This document shows positions 19,022 through 26,695 of a DNA stretch of 64,000 nt, piece after piece (position 1 is the first letter of the stretch; each line of letters begins with the position of its first letter). A program made the translations under genes and the position numbers. The DNA comes from Elioraea thermophila (ex Habib et al. 2022) (GTDB lineage Bacteria > Pseudomonadota > Alphaproteobacteria > Acetobacterales > Acetobacteraceae): the NCBI RefSeq assembly GCF_003336755.1, contig NZ_QMDI01000005.1:1-64000 (forward strand), in the 5' to 3' direction. The notes below the pieces were generated by a model, which had not been told where the DNA came from, made no database searches, and saw only the letters and a list, made by a program, of their open reading frames with translations.

Positions 19022-19888
19022 TCAGGCGGCCTCGGCGTAGGGAAGAAGGCCCGGTGCGCCCTCCTCGATCGGGCACGCCGGATCGCGGGACCATTCGTTC
19101 CAGGAACCGAAGTAGATCCGCACGTCCTTCACGCCCGCCTCCTTCAGCGCGAGGAAGGTGTTGGAGGCACGCGCCCCCTTGAAGCAGTAGAGGGAGACGG
19201 GCGTGTCGGGCGTGATGCCGACGGTGGCGAGCTCGGCGCGGATCTCGGCCGGGGCCTTGAACATCGGCCCGGCTGCGGTGGGCTTCATGAAGCGGTACCA
19301 CTCGATCCATCGCGCGCCCGGGATCCGGCCCTTGCGCGGGCAGAAATCCTTGCCGTAGGGCGAGGAGGACTCGCCGATCCACTCGTCGACGTCGCGCACG
19401 TCGAGGATCGCGACGTCGGGCCGGCCAAGGGCATCGAGCATGTCCTCCTTGGTCGCCATGATCGACGCCGGTTCGGCGCCGAGCGGAAAGGTCGCGGCGG
19501 CGCGCAGCGTCGGCTCCGTCGTCACCGGCAGTCCGGCCGCCGTCCATGCGGCGAGCCCGCCGTGCAGCACCGCGACCTTGGGATAGCCGAGCCAGGTGAG
19601 CAGGTAGTAGCCGCGGCAGGACCGACCGAAGCCCGTGTTCATCGACTGCTCGTAGAGCACCGCCGTCTCCGCCCCCGACAGGCCGGCGGAGGCGAAGGCC
19701 TGGGCGAAAGTGCCGCGCAGCTTCGCCAACCCTTCCGCATCCGACGTGGCGAGGTAGGTGAAGATCTCAGGCAGGTTCACCGCCCCCGGAATGTGGCCGG
19801 CCGCGAAGGCCTCCGGCGCGCGGGTGTCGATCGGCACCGCGTCCGGCATCGCCGCCAGCTCGGCGGGTGAAATCAGCGTCTTGACCAT
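19022..19888 (-). CDS. Sulfurtransferase with two rhodanese domains
   Basis: The 288-residue protein has tandem rhodanese domains. The N-terminal one (about 5-120) lacks the active-site cysteine loop. The C-terminal one has YCFKGARAS with catalytic Cys235, followed by a FGSWNEW motif typical of thiosulfate or 3-mercaptopyruvate sulfurtransferases. It would transfer sulfane sulfur to thiol acceptors or cyanide. A GGGAGACGGAG ribosome-binding site supports the start. It is the last gene of the minus-strand run with an acyl-CoA-dehydrogenase-like enzyme, an OsmC-like protein and a sulfonate-type ABC transporter, which suggests handling of sulfur released from an imported compound. Confidence 0.88.
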   Translation of the reverse strand: MVKTLISPAELAAMPDAVPIDTRAPEAFAAGHIPGAVNLPEIFTYLATSDAEGLAKLRGTFAQAFASAGLSGAETAVLYEQSMNTGFGRSCRGYYLLTWLGYPKVAVLHGGLAAWTAAGLPVTTEPTLRAAATFPLGAEPASIMATKEDMLDALGRPDVAILDVRDVDEWIGESSSPYGKDFCPRKGRIPGARWIEWYRFMKPTAAGPMFKAPAEIRAELATVGITPDTPVSLYCFKGARASNTFLALKEAGVKDVRIYFGSWNEWSRDPACPIEEGAPGLLPYAEAA

Positions 19889-19962: not shown

Positions 19963-21093
19963 TCACTGTGGCCTCTGCACGCCTGGACCGTCGTCGAGGT
20001 CGTGCAGCATCTTGCGCAGCTGCTTCGTCGCCGGGGTGACGATGGCGACGAACTGCGCCTCGCGCAGCCGCCGCTGCGGGCGGGCGGAGGCGAGATAGCC
20101 CCGCGCGCCGGCATGCAGCATGGCGGCCTGCGCCGCCTTCAGCGTGGCCTCGCCGGCGGCGAGCCGCAGCGCGATCACCCGCCGCCAGTGGCCGGGCGAG
20201 GGGTCGAACGGATCCTCCGCCAGCGCCTGCGCCTCACGCGCGAAGGCCGCGCATTCCGCCTCCAGAGCATCCGGCTGCACCTCGAGGAAGCGGTTGACGT
20301 GACCAAGGGCCGGTTCGACCTCGCGCATGATGGCGATGCAGTCGCGGATCAGCCCCAAGGCCATGCCGGACTGCAGCAGGACGAAGCCCGCCCGGATGCG
20401 GGAGAGGTAGCCGTCGATCGGGTCGGCGAGCACGTTCCGGTAAGGGATCGGTGCCTCCTTGAAGCGCACCGCGTAGGTCGCGGTGCCTTCGAGCGCGATG
20501 AAGGGCCCGGCACGCTTGATCTCCACCCCCGGGGCGCCGCATTCGGCGAGGAAGAAGACCTTGCTGCCGTCGTCGACGCACTCCGCGATGGTGCCGAACA
20601 CGTGCCCCTCGCCCAAGTTCGACACCCACGGCAGGGTCCCGTCGACGATGAACCCGTCGCCGGCACGGCGCGCCTTCAGTCGCAGCCGCTCGATGCCGAA
20701 GAAGGCCTTCATCGGGTTGGAGAGCCCCGTGCCGCCGAGAAGGCGCGCCGCGGCGGCGGGCTCGAGCCAGGCCTCGCGCGCGGCGGCGTTCGGGCTGTTG
20801 CGCACGTACCAGATCAGCGCCGACTGGCACCAGGCAAGGAACCCCGTCGAGAGGCACACCTCGCTCACCCGCGCGATGACATCGACCTGGCTGGAGAGGT
20901 CGGCGGCGGCAACGGGACGGAAACCGCCCACCGCACCGAGCCGGCGCAGGAACGGTTCGGGATAGAGACCATCGCGGTCGATGCGTACCGCGAGGGGGGC
21001 GAGTTCGGTGTCGGCAAGCGCCGAGACGGTCGCGCCGAGCTCCGGGGTGGCGGGCTTGGGCGCGGCGGCATCGCTCAGGGTGATGGTCTGCAT
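19963..21093 (-). CDS. Acyl-CoA dehydrogenase-fold flavoenzyme (SfnB/DszC-like)
   Basis: The product has 376 residues from the ATG at 21093, chosen because AAGGAGAG precedes it at ideal distance; a longer open frame has no such signal. The sequence follows the acyl-CoA dehydrogenase layout: an N-terminal helical domain, a beta domain with DGFIVDGTLPWVSNLG, and a C-terminal helical domain. The catalytic glutamate is not obvious, and the family includes flavin-dependent monooxygenases such as DszC and SfnB that act on sulfur compounds. Its operon position next to a sulfonate-type transporter, OsmC and rhodanese genes favours an oxygenase or desulfurisation role over beta-oxidation. The substrate is unknown. 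Confidence 0.7.
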   Translation of the reverse strand: MQTITLSDAAAPKPATPELGATVSALADTELAPLAVRIDRDGLYPEPFLRRLGAVGGFRPVAAADLSSQVDVIARVSEVCLSTGFLAWCQSALIWYVRNSPNAAAREAWLEPAAAARLLGGTGLSNPMKAFFGIERLRLKARRAGDGFIVDGTLPWVSNLGEGHVFGTIAECVDDGSKVFFLAECGAPGVEIKRAGPFIALEGTATYAVRFKEAPIPYRNVLADPIDGYLSRIRAGFVLLQSGMALGLIRDCIAIMREVEPALGHVNRFLEVQPDALEAECAAFAREAQALAEDPFDPSPGHWRRVIALRLAAGEATLKAAQAAMLHAGARGYLASARPQRRLREAQFVAIVTPATKQLRKMLHDLDDGPGVQRPQ

Positions 21094-21148: not shown

Positions 21149-21745
21149 TCACTTCGGCGCGACGGTGAGGTTGACGGGCCTGAGGAAGGTGTTGGCGACG
21201 GGCGACCACTTGGTGACATGCGCGATCAGTGCGGCGACCTCCTCCGGTGGGGCATCGCACTCCATGTCCACTTTCACGCGCACGTCGGTGAAGCCGACCG
21301 GCTTGTCGGAGGTGTCGCCCGTGCCCCAGACGGCGGTGATGTTGAGGTCGCCCTCGAGTTCGAGTTCGAGCTTGCGCACGGTCCAGCCCTTGTGCACGGC
21401 GTTGGCGTGCAGCCCGACCGCAAGGCACGAGCCGAGGGCGGCGAGCGTGGCCTCGGACGGATTGGGGGCGGTATCGTCGCCGAGGAGTTGCGGGGGTTCG
21501 TCGACGATGTAGGGGGGAAGCGAGCGGATGTAGTTGGCGTGGCGGAACTTCCCTTCCGCCACCGTGCGGCACTTCAGGGTCTTGATCGCCTTCGGGTTCG
21601 CCTTGCCGGACTCGATCAGCTTCAGCAGCCCCTCGCGGTCGATCGGCGTCAGGCAGCCGGAAGCGGCGGGCGCCGCCGACGGGGCAGGCGCATCGCCCGG
21701 GCTCAGGCAGGAGGGGAGGATCGCCGGCGGGGTCGTTTCGTTCAT
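21149..21745 (-). CDS. OsmC-family protein
   Basis: The 198-residue protein has an OsmC fold after a variable, Pro/Ala-rich N-terminal 30 residues. The peroxidatic-type cysteine is Cys107 in AALGSCLAVGLHANA. The partner position near the C-terminus reads WSPVANTFLRPV, with Ser181 where organic hydroperoxide reductases have the second cysteine. It therefore cannot form the usual Cys-Cys pair and is probably not a classical Ohr/OsmC peroxidase. OsmC-like proteins without that pair are common beside sulfur-compound uptake genes. It sits 24 nt after the permease gene and 55 nt before the flavoenzyme gene. Confidence 0.82.
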   Translation of the reverse strand: MNETTPPAILPSCLSPGDAPAPSAAPAASGCLTPIDREGLLKLIESGKANPKAIKTLKCRTVAEGKFRHANYIRSLPPYIVDEPPQLLGDDTAPNPSEATLAALGSCLAVGLHANAVHKGWTVRKLELELEGDLNITAVWGTGDTSDKPVGFTDVRVKVDMECDAPPEEVAALIAHVTKWSPVANTFLRPVNLTVAPK

Positions 21746-21769: not shown

Positions 21770-22588
21770 TCAGGGTTCGCGGATCCAGGAGGCGCGCGCC
21801 TGCGCCTCCTGACAGAGGAGATCGAGGGCGAAGCCGATCAGTCCGATCAGCAGCACGGTGGCGGCGAGGCGGTCGTATTCGAGCGTGTCGCGGGCGTCGT
21901 TGATCGCGTAGCCGAGCCCGGAGGTGACGCCGAGGAACTCGGCCGGCACCAGCACCACCCACGCGATGCCGACGGCAAGGCGGATCCCTGTCAGCACGTC
22001 GGGCAGGATCGCGGGCAGGATGACGAACCAGAGGAGATGCGGCGGGCGTGCCCCGAGATTGCGCGACATGCGAAGCCACGCCGGATTGATGCGGCGGTAG
22101 CCGGCGGCGGTGGCGAACAGCACCGGCCAGACGGCGGCGACCGCGATCAGGAAGATGATCGCCTCGTCCCAGCTGCGGAAGGCGAGCACCGCGATCGGCA
22201 TCCAGGCGAGCGGGCTCACCATGCGCAGGATCTGGAACGGCAGGTTGGTCGCGGTGCGGACGGAGGGCGAGGCGCCGATCAGGATGCCGACCGGCACGCC
22301 GATCGCGATCGCGATGGCGAGGCCGTGGAGGATGCGGTTCAAGGAGGGAGCCGTCATCGCCCAGGCCTCGCCGCTCGCGAGCATCAGCCAGAAGCGGGCG
22401 AAGGTCGGGCCCGGGGCGAAGTCGGCGAAGGCCGAAGTGCGCGGGTTGGCCGCCACCGCCGCCGCGCCCAGCCACCAGGCGAGCCCGATCACCCCGAGCC
22501 CGGCGGCGATCAGGACGACCCGCATCGCCCCGCGACGGAGCGCGAGCGGTGCGGGGCGCGCGGCGGCAGGAAGGGCGAGCGCGGTCAC
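21770..22588 (-). CDS. ABC transporter permease, sulfonate/nitrate/taurine type
   Basis: The 272-residue membrane protein starts at a GTG (22588) whose bases overlap the upstream stop codon (GTGA). It has about six transmembrane segments and the BPD_transp_1 EAA-like cytoplasmic loop (YRRINPAWLRMSRNLGA followed by PPHLLWFVILPAILPDVLTG). It resembles SsuC, TauC and NrtB permeases. With the ATPase and binding protein encoded upstream it would form an importer. The start is well supported by translational coupling. Confidence 0.9.
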   Translation of the reverse strand: MTALALPAAARPAPLALRRGAMRVVLIAAGLGVIGLAWWLGAAAVAANPRTSAFADFAPGPTFARFWLMLASGEAWAMTAPSLNRILHGLAIAIAIGVPVGILIGASPSVRTATNLPFQILRMVSPLAWMPIAVLAFRSWDEAIIFLIAVAAVWPVLFATAAGYRRINPAWLRMSRNLGARPPHLLWFVILPAILPDVLTGIRLAVGIAWVVLVPAEFLGVTSGLGYAINDARDTLEYDRLAATVLLIGLIGFALDLLCQEAQARASWIREP

Positions 22589-23817
22589 AGCGCGAGCACC
22601 TCCTGGCGAACGAAGGGGTCGGGGCGTGACACGCCGGCGTCGTTGATCCAGTCCGGGAAGCGATCGAGAGCGCGCCGGACGGGCCCGTAAGCGACGAGGT
22701 CGCGCGCGACGAAGGCAGGATCGAGGGTGGCGAGGAAGCCCGCATCGCCGCCGACCACGGTATCCTTCAGCAATGTCACCATCAGTTCGGTGGCGGACGG
22801 ATAGGGCCAGGGCTGGAAGTCGATCCGCCCCGCCTGCCAGTCGGCGTGCTTGATCGCGCCCGAACTGCGATAGGCGGGCTCGTCGTAAGCAAGCATCGCG
22901 CGCTCGACGACATCGGCGGGAACCGGCAGGTACCCCTCGCCGTCGCGCGACAACAGGCGCGCCACCTCGCGCTTGTTCTGCGAAGCGTAGATGGCGCCGC
23001 GCACGACGGCGGTGACGACGCGATCGGTCCAATCCGGGTCGTCGGTGAGGCGGTTCTCGCGCACGCAGGCGACACAGCACGGATGGTGCTTCCAGATGTC
23101 GCCGGTGAAGCGCAGCATGCGCCCGCCGGCGCGGAGTTCGCCGAGCGCGTTGAACGGTTCGGCGACGATGTAGGCGTCGAGCTTGCCGGCGGCGAGCGCG
23201 GGCGGCATGTCGGGTGGGGGCATGATCTGCAGGTTGCACTCGTCCGGGCCGAGTGCCGCTCCTTGCGGTTTGATCACAGCGCGCACGCCCGCCGCACGCA
23301 GCGCGTACTGCAGCACGATGTTGTGCATCGAGTACCAGAAGGGCACCGCGACCTGCTTGCCGGCGAAGTCGCGGAAGGAGGCGATGCCCGAGTTGCGACC
23401 GACCACGATGCCTGAGCCGTTGGTGTGCGCCCAGGCGACGATCTTCACCGGGAAGCCGTTGCCGTAGCGCATCCAGATCGGGATCGGCATCAGGAAGTGG
23501 ACGAGGTTCACCCGGTCGGCGGCGAAGGATTCGACGAGGGGGGCCCAGCCGCGCATCAGAACGGGCCGTTCCGCCTCGAGCCCCGCTTCGCGGAAGAAGC
23601 CCTTGGCGTAGGCGACGAGGAGGGCGGTGGCGTCGGTGATCGGGATGTAGCCGATGCGCACCACGCGATCGGACGCGCGTGCCTGGCGCGCGCCGGCGGC
23701 GAGCGCGGCCGCCACGCCGCCGGCGGTGATCGCCTCGAGGAAGCCGCGCCGGGGCAGTGCCACGTAGTCGGAGGCGTACAGGGTGGCCCAGGGGCGGGGC
23801 AGGCGCGGCTCAGGCAT
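22585..23817 (-). CDS. ABC transporter substrate-binding protein, NrtA/SsuA-like, Tat-exported
   Basis: The 410-residue protein starts at ATG 23817, overlapping the ATPase gene end by 8 bp. A twin-arginine signal (RRGFLEA at 23-29) and hydrophobic stretch end near AGARQARA, so it is probably exported folded by the Tat system. The mature part starts VVRIGYIPITDATALLVAYA, typical of the CmpA/NrtA-like periplasmic binding family (NMT1/THI5-like). Tat export is common in this family. The ligand could be a sulfonate, taurine, nitrate or a related anion. Gene context favours a sulfur compound, but the sequence alone does not decide. Confidence 0.85.
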   Translation of the reverse strand: MPEPRLPRPWATLYASDYVALPRRGFLEAITAGGVAAALAAGARQARASDRVVRIGYIPITDATALLVAYAKGFFREAGLEAERPVLMRGWAPLVESFAADRVNLVHFLMPIPIWMRYGNGFPVKIVAWAHTNGSGIVVGRNSGIASFRDFAGKQVAVPFWYSMHNIVLQYALRAAGVRAVIKPQGAALGPDECNLQIMPPPDMPPALAAGKLDAYIVAEPFNALGELRAGGRMLRFTGDIWKHHPCCVACVRENRLTDDPDWTDRVVTAVVRGAIYASQNKREVARLLSRDGEGYLPVPADVVERAMLAYDEPAYRSSGAIKHADWQAGRIDFQPWPYPSATELMVTLLKDTVVGGDAGFLATLDPAFVARDLVAYGPVRRALDRFPDWINDAGVSRPDPFVRQEVLAL

Positions 23818-24652
23818 GGGAGAAGCTCCGTTCGACGGGGACGGGACGGACGGACGGGGTGGGGGGCGAAGCCTCGGTCGCGGCCTCGGGCGGGGCGAGA
23901 TCGCCGGCGAGGGCGGCATACAGACGGGCGCGCGCCTCGGCGAAGCGGGGATCGAGCGGGGAACGATCCGCCGGCAGATCGAAGGTGAGATCGGCGACGA
24001 TGCGGCCCGGCTCGCCCGCCAGCACGACCGCGCGGTCGCACAGCGCGACCGCTTCCGCGATGTCGTGCGTGACGAGGATGAGGGTGAGGCCGAGCCGTTC
24101 GGCGATCGCGCGCACGTCGCGCTGCAGGGCGGCACGGGTCAGCGCATCGAGGGCGGAGAAGGGCTCGTCGAGCATCAGGAGGTCGGGCTCGACGGCGAGG
24201 GCGCGGGCGAGGGCCACGCGCTGCTGCTGCCCCCCCGAAAGGTCCTGGGCGTTGCGGTCGGCGAAGGCCGACAGCCCGACGAGGTCGAGCAAGGCGGCGA
24301 TCTTCTCCTTTCTGCCCTCGCGGCGGCCGAGGAAGGAGAGGCCGAGGCCTACGTTGCGCGCGGCCGTGAGCCAGGGCAGCAGGCAGGGCTCCTGGAACAT
24401 CACCACGCGCGAGGGGTCGGGGCCGGTGACGCGCCGGCCGTCGATGTGAATGGCCCCGAGGGTTGGGGTGGCGAGACCGGCGATGAGGTGCAGGAGGGTG
24501 GACTTGCCGCAGCCGGAGCGGCCGATCAGGGCGACGCGGCTGCCGGGGGCGATCTCGAGCGAGACGTCGGCGAGCACGGGGCCGGAGCCGCGCCGGTAGC
24601 GGTGCGACAGGGCGTCGATCTGGACGTGGGCGCCTCTGCCGCGTCGGGTCAT
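23810..24652 (-). CDS. ABC transporter ATP-binding protein, sulfonate/nitrate type
   Basis: All ATPase motifs are present: Walker A GRSGCGKST, Q-loop MFQEP, signature LSGGQQQR, Walker B LLMLDEP and the switch THD. It is an SsuB/TauB/NrtD-type cytoplasmic subunit that drives the adjacent permease. The start at 24652 (MTRRGRGAHVQIDAL) gives 280 residues. An in-frame ATG at 24688 adds 12 arginine-rich residues and cannot be excluded; neither has a strong ribosome-binding site. It is the first gene of the operon, transcribed away from the TetR gene across a 220-nt control region. Confidence 0.9.
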   Translation of the reverse strand: MTRRGRGAHVQIDALSHRYRRGSGPVLADVSLEIAPGSRVALIGRSGCGKSTLLHLIAGLATPTLGAIHIDGRRVTGPDPSRVVMFQEPCLLPWLTAARNVGLGLSFLGRREGRKEKIAALLDLVGLSAFADRNAQDLSGGQQQRVALARALAVEPDLLMLDEPFSALDALTRAALQRDVRAIAERLGLTLILVTHDIAEAVALCDRAVVLAGEPGRIVADLTFDLPADRSPLDPRFAEARARLYAALAGDLAPPEAATEASPPTPSVRPVPVERSFSHA

Positions 24653-24675
24653 GGTGTGGCGCCTGCGACGCCTGG

Positions 24676-24700
24676 ACCGGAACAGCATGTCCGGTTTTTT
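24676..24700 (+). terminator. Orphan terminator-like hairpin in the ssuB-like/tetR control region
   Basis: ACCGGA (24676-24681) and TCCGGT (24690-24695) form a 6-bp stem with an 8-nt loop, followed on the plus strand by a run of six T. That is the form of an intrinsic terminator, yet no plus-strand gene lies upstream. It overlaps the 5' end of the ATPase gene in antisense. It could insulate the TetR gene from antisense transcription, or act as a protein-binding site. Confidence 0.4.
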
Positions 24701-24754
24701 GGCACAACCCGGTCAAAAAGTGTAGAAAACATTTTTGCCCTTCACCACTAAGAC

Positions 24755-24768
24755 AGACTGGTCAGTCT
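24755..24768. promoter_or_regulatory. Palindromic operator, probable TetR-family binding site
   Basis: AGACTGGTCAGTCT is a perfect 6-2-6 inverted repeat located between the divergently transcribed ATPase and TetR genes, in an AT-rich island unlike the surrounding DNA. TetR-family repressors typically bind such short palindromes in the intergenic region next to their own gene. A possible tetR promoter (TTGGCA at 24699-24704, TAGAAA at 24723-24728) lies just upstream, so binding here would block tetR and probably the transport operon as well. Confidence 0.6.
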
Positions 24769-24873
24769 CTCCGTGTGCACAGCCTTGCACAAACTGTGCC
24801 AGCCTTGCCCCACCCGGACACCCGGCGACCCGGCCTTTCCAGCCCTCGCCAAGGCTGCTACCGAACGCGGCAC

Positions 24874-25539
24874 ATGCCTGAAATGGACGCGCCCGCTGCT
24901 CAGGATTCGACCACCACGCAGACGATCGCAGGCGAGCGCGGCCCCGGGCTCAGCCGGACCGACGAAGCCCGCGCCCGTCTCCTCTCCGCCGCCGAACGGC
25001 TGATCTGCGCCCGCGGAGTCGCCGGCACGGGAATCGAGGCGATCCTCGCCGAGGCCGAGGTCGCCAAGGCCACCCTGTACCGCCTCTTCGGGTCCAAGGA
25101 GGCGCTGGTCGAGGCCGTGCTCGACCGCCACAGCCGCGGCTGGAGCGCCTGGTTCGCGGCCCGCCTCGCCGAAACGCCGGGCCCTGCCGAGGAGCGTCTG
25201 CTCGCCGGCTTCGACATCCTCGCGGAATGGTTTCGTTCGCCCGGCTTCCGGGGCTGTCCGATCCTGAACGCGATCGGCGAGGGCCCGGCCGCCGGCGACG
25301 CGCCACGCCGCGTCGCCGCCGCGCACAAGGCTCGGCTCTCGCCCGTGCTGGTCGGCCTCGCCCGCGAGGCCGGTGTGCCCGACCCGCAGGCCCTGGTCGA
25401 TGCCTTCATCCTGCTGATGGACGGCGCGATCGTCGTTGCCCTCGCCTCGGGCTCGCCGGCCCCGGCGATGACCGCCCGCGCCACCTTCGCCGCCGTGCTG
25501 CAGGCGGCGAAGGCGAGCACCCACGCCCCGGCCGCCTGA
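24874..25539 (+). CDS. TetR/AcrR-family transcriptional regulator
   Basis: The ATG at 24874 gives 221 residues; the reading frame stays open upstream, so the start is uncertain. The N-terminal helix-turn-helix GTGIEAILAEAEVAKATLYR followed by LFGSKEALVEAVL is typical of TetR regulators. The C-terminal ligand and dimerisation domain is helical (FRGCPILNAIGEG), resembling TetR regulators with a conserved CxxxN in this position. It is divergent from the sulfonate-type ABC operon with a palindrome between, so it most likely controls that operon and itself. The inducer is unknown. It converges on hemW after only 4 nt. Confidence 0.9.
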   Translation: MPEMDAPAAQDSTTTQTIAGERGPGLSRTDEARARLLSAAERLICARGVAGTGIEAILAEAEVAKATLYRLFGSKEALVEAVLDRHSRGWSAWFAARLAETPGPAEERLLAGFDILAEWFRSPGFRGCPILNAIGEGPAAGDAPRRVAAAHKARLSPVLVGLAREAGVPDPQALVDAFILLMDGAIVVALASGSPAPAMTARATFAAVLQAAKASTHAPAA

Positions 25540-25543
25540 CCCC

Positions 25544-26695
25544 TCAGCGCACGACGAGCGGCAGCAGCGCCTCCAGCCTGAGCCGCCCCGCTGCGGTGGC
25601 GACGAGCCTGCCATCGGGGCGGCGCACCAGCCACCCCTCGGCCTCCGCCAGCGCAAAGCCTCGGGGGTCCAGCGCCTGGTCGAGCGCAACCCCGGTGCGG
25701 GCGCGGAAACCCTCCGGTTCCACCCCCTCGGCGAGCCTCAGCCCCATCAGCAGCGCCTCACGTGCCCGCGTCGGCGGATCGAGCGCCTCCTCCTCCGCCA
25801 CCCCATGCCCGAGGCGCTCGACCTGCTCCATCCAGGCCTCGGGGGCGCGCACGCGTCGCGTCGCCACCAGGCCGTTCTCGACCGGCACCCGCCCATGCGC
25901 CCCGGGCCCTACGCCCAGGTAGGGCTGGTAGCGCCAGTAGGCGAGGTTGTGCCGGCTCTCCGCCCCCGGCCGCGCGTAGTTCGACACTTCATAGGGGACG
26001 AGCCCGGCGCGTTCGGCCTCCTCCGCCGTCGCCGCGTAGAGCTCGGCCTGAGTGCCGTCGTCCGGCAGCACGAGCTCGCCGCGGGCCTGGGCGCGGGCGA
26101 ACGGCGTGCCCGGCTCGATCGTCAACTGATAGAGCGAGAGGTGGTCGAGCCCGAACGCCAAGGCGGCGCGCAGCTCCGCCCGCCAGCCGGCCTCGGTCTG
26201 TCCGGGCCGCGCGTAGATCAGGTCGAACGAGGCGCGGGGGAAGGTCGCCCGCGCCAGCGCGAGCGCGGCGCGCGCCTCCGCCGCCGTATGACGTCGGCCG
26301 AGGAAGGCGAGGGCAGCGTCGTCCAGCGCCTGCACGCCGAGCGAGATCCGGTTCACCCCCGCCTCCCGAAAGCCGCGCAGCCGACCCGCCTCGACCGAGG
26401 TCGGGTTCGCCTCGAGCGTGATCTCCGGCTCGTCGGCCGCGGGGAAGGCCGCCCGTGCGGCGTCGATGATCGCCGCCACCGTCTCGGGCGACATCAGCGA
26501 CGGCGTGCCGCCGCCCAAGAACAGCGAACCGAGCGGCCTGGGGCCGACGCGGGCTGCCTCGAAGGCGAGGTCGGTCAGCACCGCGCGGCGGTAGCGCACC
26601 TCGTCGATGCGCTCGCGCACGTGGGCGTTGAAGTCGCAATAGGGGCAGCGCGACAGGCAGAACGGCCAGTGCACGTAGAGCGCGATCGGGTCCAT
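25544..26695 (-). CDS. hemW: Radical SAM heme chaperone HemW (HemN-like)
   Basis: The 383-residue protein begins MDPIALYVHWPFCLSRCPYC. The radical-SAM cluster ligands are Cys13, Cys17 and Cys20 (CxxxCxxC). The conserved GGGTPSL and the EANPTS motif follow. Its length, and a start directly at the radical SAM domain, place it in the HemW group rather than oxygen-independent coproporphyrinogen oxidase HemN, which has an N-terminal extension. HemW binds heme and hands it to target proteins. It is often annotated as coproporphyrinogen III oxidase. It stands alone, divergent from glgX. Confidence 0.88.
   Translation of the reverse strand: MDPIALYVHWPFCLSRCPYCDFNAHVRERIDEVRYRRAVLTDLAFEAARVGPRPLGSLFLGGGTPSLMSPETVAAIIDAARAAFPAADEPEITLEANPTSVEAGRLRGFREAGVNRISLGVQALDDAALAFLGRRHTAAEARAALALARATFPRASFDLIYARPGQTEAGWRAELRAALAFGLDHLSLYQLTIEPGTPFARAQARGELVLPDDGTQAELYAATAEEAERAGLVPYEVSNYARPGAESRHNLAYWRYQPYLGVGPGAHGRVPVENGLVATRRVRAPEAWMEQVERLGHGVAEEEALDPPTRAREALLMGLRLAEGVEPEGFRARTGVALDQALDPRGFALAEAEGWLVRRPDGRLVATAAGRLRLEALLPLVVR

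Follow-up and report, generated by a model that had tools for sequence, protein, structure and literature searches.

A conserved operator-like dyad beside a sigma-54-like promoter element between tetR and an ABC transporter and OsmC operon of Elioraea thermophila

The window analysed here, a 64,000-nucleotide stretch of Elioraea thermophila DNA, carries a gene for a TetR-family regulator, tetR (24874-25539, + strand), and a divergent operon on the - strand. The TetR_N helix-turn-helix domain of the regulator scores above the cut-off (PF00440, 51.1 bits versus 24, E 1.1e-13), and TetR_C_31 lies barely above its own. The operon encodes, in this order, an ABC transporter ATPase (23810-24652; PF00005), a substrate-binding protein of the NMT1_2 family (22585-23817), a permease (21770-22624; PF00528), an OsmC-like protein (21149-21745; PF02566), an acyl-CoA-dehydrogenase-like flavoprotein (19963-21093; PF02771) and a tandem rhodanese resembling 3-mercaptopyruvate sulfurtransferase (19022-19888; PF00581, best NCBIfam match below cut-off). 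The start codons of the permease and flavoprotein genes were chosen by us, and the ATG of the ATPase gene at 24652 is conserved in an alignment of four Elioraea-type sequences. A previous reading of the sequence alone, referred to below as the sequence-only reading, had correctly proposed a divergent ABC operon; this operon is longer than was claimed, with the OsmC, flavoprotein and rhodanese genes added, and the sigma-54-like element described below had been overlooked. The nearest named relatives of the locus are two MAGs labelled Elioraea (86% in TetR). A gene for a HemW-type radical SAM protein (25544-26695) is convergent to tetR, and this neighbour is retained in L019, L035 and L036.

Database matches place the gene products only broadly. 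The solved sequences nearest to the binding protein are nitrate/bicarbonate transport proteins, its closest NCBIfam model belongs to a sulfonate family and is below cut-off, and the solved-structure matches of the flavoprotein are acyl-CoA dehydrogenases. No listed NCBIfam model reaches its cut-off for TetR, the binding protein, the permease, OsmC, the flavoprotein or the rhodanese; for the ATPase, none of the best 25 of 188 matches does so, and SfnB and SfnR are absent among the NCBIfam matches listed. There is some likeness to the Sec-assisted organometallic (SAO) system, as far as the available text of its description goes (PMC13188914): the permease has SaoP as its best-scoring model, SaoX ranks second among those of the binding protein, and OsmC matches a (seleno)protein-related OsmC model. 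Membership in the SAO system is not supported, as the scores are far below the cut-offs (SaoP 138.9 versus 295 bits, SaoX 47.2 versus 300 bits and OsmC_like_Se 52.2 versus 95 bits).

The partnership between these genes is conserved. OsmC relatives at E<=1e-60 are encoded in 23 of 397 genomes of the family, including that of E. thermophila, and the 20 that fall outside the window's genus all have a divergent TetR relative beside the OsmC gene. The flavoprotein gene follows OsmC in 19 of the 20, and in L101 the contig ends. Two layouts occur, in which the divergent TetR gene faces either OsmC and the flavoprotein directly or a series of ATPase, binding protein, permease, OsmC and flavoprotein. 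The OsmC proteins of tetR-linked relatives are 65-87% identical to that of the window; the corresponding values are 97% in G1027 and 57% in G708, and the latter genome has the operon genes without a TetR relative in the stretch examined. In the wider class OsmC is rare: at E<=1e-50, 3 of 385 genomes have one, E. thermophila included. Six loci were scanned for the gene adjoining the operon, which encodes a rhodanese in L037, L111, L119, G556 and G153 and a DSBA-like protein in L042. In G153 a phage-type integrase gene (L152:5663-6946) is located about 0.4 kb past tetR, which hints at horizontal transfer. The combination of OsmC, a mercaptopyruvate-sulfurtransferase-related rhodanese and a nitrate/bicarbonate- and sulfonate-like binding protein suggests that the operon may function in scavenging a sulfur or nitrogen compound.

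The sequence AGACTGGTCAGTCT occupies positions 24755-24768 of the window and forms the inverted repeat AGACTG-GT-CAGTCT. It was described in the sequence-only reading as a 14-bp perfect palindrome in an AT-rich island between tetR and the ABC operon. The palindrome is imperfect: the 6-bp arms pair, but the GT between them cannot pair with itself, which leaves 12 of 14 positions symmetric. The AT-rich setting was confirmed, with 43-47% GC in 60-bp windows from 24680, 24700 and 24720 compared with 65-80% farther out on both flanks, and the repeat does lie between the two divergent genes. Perfect repeats with 6-bp arms and a 2-nt spacer occur 44 times in the 64-kb window and on average 40.5 times in 20 shuffled sequences (maximum 51); hence, symmetry alone is no proof of function.

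Conservation was examined in 33 divergent tetR/operon regions, 4 of them Elioraea-type, 20 from other family members and 9 from other alphaproteobacteria. Excluded from this set were G1027, where the stretch ends before the promoter, G708, for its missing TetR relative, and ABC-only loci. The comparison points to a putative TetR-family operator, an imperfect 18-bp dyad at 24751-24768 with the + strand halves AGACAGACT and GGTCAGTCT, of which the repeat is an off-axis portion. Read on the operon strand, the best site matches the consensus AGACWGACCNGTCTGT at 12 or more of 15 positions in 30 of the 33 regions; lower scores were obtained for G556 (11), L039 (10) and G742 (10). The observed score was reached by none of 200 shuffles for 29 of these 30 regions and by one of 200 for L038, a control that leaves some bias since the consensus was derived from the same 33 regions that it scores. 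Aligning the 31 sites that score at least 11, the window included, places the symmetry axis between window positions 24759 and 24760, with at least 29 of the 31 sites identical in six columns to the left and five to the right of it. The ideal form of the operator has the halves AGACAGACC and GGTCTGTCT, and the operon strand of the window reads AGACTGACC and AGTCTGTCT.

Relative to the repeat's own axis, the conserved one is shifted leftwards by 2 bp. Across the 31 aligned sites, symmetric pairs average 0.74 at the conserved axis and 0.54 at that of the repeat; in the window sequence alone the two tie at 0.78. The repeat at 24755-24768 arises from changes in the window that make a second, shifted axis. 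The exact 14-mer is present in 2 of the 33 regions, namely the window and L036, and with its deviating axis it was ruled out as the operator. Conservation beside orthologous tetR genes, the pre-set test of the sequence-only proposal, thus separates two sequences: the exact 14-mer is not conserved, and the operator that contains it is. The proposed TetR binding, referred to the predicted 18-bp operator, is thus well supported by comparison (30 of 33 regions). As a handle on the regulon, the repeat yields little, as the genome (3,029,972 bases) holds a single exact copy of AGACTGNNCAGTCT, and the operator consensus finds one perfect place and six more at two mismatches. A second operator-like site is present between the genes in 5 of the 33 regions (G164, G978, L037, G386 and G863), with which the suggested autoregulation of tetR fits; it is plausible to this extent, although the tetR promoter that had been placed beside the repeat was not located, a consensus scan of 24600-24950 having given no sigma-70-type promoter. 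Judged from this conservation, the predicted operator is very probably the landing site of the repressor encoded by tetR.

Sites of this kind are also found upstream of other TetR genes. Twenty-four TetR relatives with no adjacent OsmC gene in the available stretch were used as controls. In a scan of their upstream 400 bp with ACAGACNNGTCTGT, five score 12 of 12 and one 11 of 12; many others carry a GACCGGTC core with different flanks. The operator type therefore seems to extend to a wider TetR clade. Three controls, L017, L021 and L030, are not clean, since their recognition helix resembles that of the OsmC-linked clade.

The operon strand carries, shortly before the operator, the sequence TGGCACAGTTTGTGCA (24801-24786, - strand), a sigma-54-like -24/-12 element with GG at 24800-24799 and GC at 24788-24787 that matches TGGCAYG-N4-TTGCW at 10 of 12 positions. 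An element scoring at least 10 of 12 is found in 27 of the 33 regions, many of which come from related genomes, with 3-22 nt between the C of the -12 box and the operator. The 27 regions span eight numbered genera of the family and include five regions outside it. A strict GG-N10-GC is present in 21 of them; in the other six (G019, G164, G945, G1008, G1032 and G1052) the -12 box is TTGG or TTGA and not TTGC. Elsewhere in the 33 regions, beyond the 45 nt before the operator, such scores occur at 0 of 11,515 positions on the same strand and 6 of 13,000 on the opposite strand, and in five g97 genomes both the operator and the element are among the fully conserved alignment blocks. The element is absent from L019, where -24 is retained and -12 is lost, and from G012, L038, L039, G863 and G742. 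Of the 24 controls, three attain 10 of 12 somewhere in the 400 bp scanned, on one of the two strands. The claim of a sigma-54-like element rests on comparison between genomes, because in the window region by itself the score is reached by 9 of 200 shuffles and in the whole genome TGGCAYRN5TGCW is not enriched (12 sites versus 23 for the reversed pattern). Beside the operator, the promoter backed by this comparison is predicted to be sigma-54-like and to belong to the operon itself, on the strand opposite to tetR. At sigma-54 promoters transcription starts about 12 nt after the C of the -12 box, a geometry that would put the operon start at 24773-24777 (- strand).

Two side observations concern individual genomes. 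In G197 (L019, L090) the matches to tetR, the permease and the flavoprotein are divided between reading frames, in addition to the lost -12 box, indicating a decaying copy or assembly errors. In G017, G108, G163 and G944 (L095, L098, L097 and L099) the tetR strand holds a second sigma-54-like sequence, scoring 9-10 of 12, within a block that is conserved among the four.

The components needed to use such a promoter are encoded by E. thermophila, whose genome has one RpoN and seven strong and four weak Sigma54_activat matches. Five of the seven strong ones were read by eye, and L062 alone of these five was covered by the profile scan. One is encoded beside a flagellar gene, three have receiver-type N-termini and one, L062, lacks such an N-terminus. 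By the same reading of translations, L061 and L059 are response-regulator-type sigma-54 activators encoded beside molybdopterin-oxidoreductase-like genes. Among the 34 operon-bearing genomes, close relatives of L062 are confined to G386 (60%) and three further genomes of Elioraea type (92-94%). A tblastn search with L062 of 53 loci and the window, a set that excludes the activator gene of G556, gave no match. In G556, a gene for a PAS-AAA+ sigma-54 enhancer-binding protein (L151:8770-10695) adjoins the operon's rhodanese gene convergently; at E<=1e-90 the protein has no homologue in 14 other genomes. An activator gene adjoining the operon was found in G556 only, with no generally linked one, and the search for a shared upstream activator site gave none that convinces (best dyad in 5 of 18 regions versus 3-4 in shuffles).

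RpoN is found in 30 of the 34 operon-bearing genomes; those without a match are G944 (67% complete), G1136 (the L036 MAG), G863 and G1140 (L038). Of the element-bearing genomes 25 of 27 have RpoN, and the two exceptions, G944 and G1136, are drafts. G863 and G1140 lack both an RpoN match and the element; each retains an operator-like site, scoring 13 of 15 in G863 and 12 of 15 in G1140. This pattern is as expected if the element needs RpoN, but it is only suggestive, since the other four of the six element-less genomes (G197, G012, L039 and G742) have RpoN.

Taking the computed conservation of the operator and of the sigma-54-like element, the position of the latter, the conserved gene partners and the presence of rpoN and activator genes together, we hypothesize, with reasonable confidence, that an 18-bp operator for the tetR-encoded repressor lies just past a sigma-54-dependent operon start, and that transcription would need both an activator and the release of TetR. 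An AAA+ enhancer-binding protein would remodel the closed complex of sigma-54 RNA polymerase at the element upon a limitation or stress signal, and a TetR dimer bound to the operator would block melting and open-complex formation, or escape. A ligand would free TetR, which together with the sigma-54 activator would turn the operon on; we infer the binding of this TetR to the operator, the reading of the element by sigma-54, the repression by TetR and the kinds of signal that act. With a start near 24775 the window operator would extend from about +8 to about +25, and at the shortest spacings (L037, L040 and L042) the operator would span about -9 to +9. Since a sigma-54 promoter stays silent unless its activator is at work, a repressor on its start site would mean that two independent signals must agree. 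If this reading is true, the operon would be on only when activation and repressor release coincide.

The main competitor accepts the TetR operator and assigns the operon promoter to sigma-70, the TGGCA...TGC sequence being recognised by a different regulator or belonging to an extended -10 (TGCATAAT, in Beijerinckiaceae-type loci). We regard this as unlikely. It draws on the sequences beside the operator in L040 (TGCATAAT), L042 (TGCATAAA) and L037 (TGCATACT), on G012, which retains TGCATAAAA without a preceding TGGCA, and on the 6 of 33 regions that have no sigma-54-like element. However, TGGCA with GG-N10-GC is retained in lineages that have no -10-like sequence after the TGC, the window region is without a sigma-70 consensus promoter, and two of the six element-less genomes are also without RpoN.

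Two further explanations concern the operator itself. That it serves mainly the autoregulation of tetR, with control of the operon being secondary, is improbable: the five regions with a second operator-like site would fit, as would the window operator ending 105 bp before the tetR start codon, but the distance kept is that to the operon promoter element (3-22 nt), compared with 95-379 nt to the start of the tetR match. It is most improbable that the repeat is a functionless chance palindrome, since 30 of 33 regions keep the operator in the equivalent position next to the orthologous genes, even if 44 comparable repeats in the window against about 40 after shuffling are what chance would give.

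Beyond the preferred reading of an activator-dependent promoter with a TetR operator at its start, we tentatively consider a broader possibility, which we hold with less than even confidence. The alphaproteobacterial module of OsmC, flavoprotein and, often where examined, rhodanese, with an optional nitrate/sulfonate-type ABC importer, may constitute a scavenging pathway that has yet to be described, with a sulfur compound as the probable substrate. The module's promoter might act as a naturally occurring AND-NOT gate that opens when the sigma-54 activator is on and TetR is off, with the start-site geometry kept in roughly a dozen lineages of genus rank and the TetR half alone kept in two or more rpoN-less genomes. 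The promoter finding would link this uncharacterised gene set and give a handle on the substrate consumed.

Discussions of TetR operators usually concern sigma-70 promoters, and what appears to be new here is the sigma-54-like -24/-12 element predicted beside one. No description of the operator or of the operon was recognised in the open-licence literature, judged mostly from titles and the beginnings of abstracts. With TetR-family repressors of divergent operons, such as NemR, which is among the solved-sequence matches, the locus shares the TetR_N domain, the divergent layout and a putative intergenic dyad operator; it differs in that no listed NCBIfam equivalog model reaches cut-off for this TetR and that the predicted operator is located at the start of a sigma-54-like promoter. 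According to the available text of PMC2680268, a TetR-type protein is also found at a sigma-54 promoter in Vibrio, where LuxR/HapR activates the qrr promoters and binds upstream of the activator site. In contrast, the Elioraea site would be situated at the start point or beyond it, and the action proposed is repression. Engineered circuits, as far as the accessible parts of their descriptions go, include a sigma-54 promoter construct carrying TetR, LacI or TraR sites in the upstream loop (PMC4740811), as well as repressor sites after the start point that act as an elongation block, in which the lambda CI sites are placed behind pBAD and pRHAB and not behind the sigma-54 promoter (PMC4490610). 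Unlike the Elioraea locus, the circuits in both of these sources are engineered.
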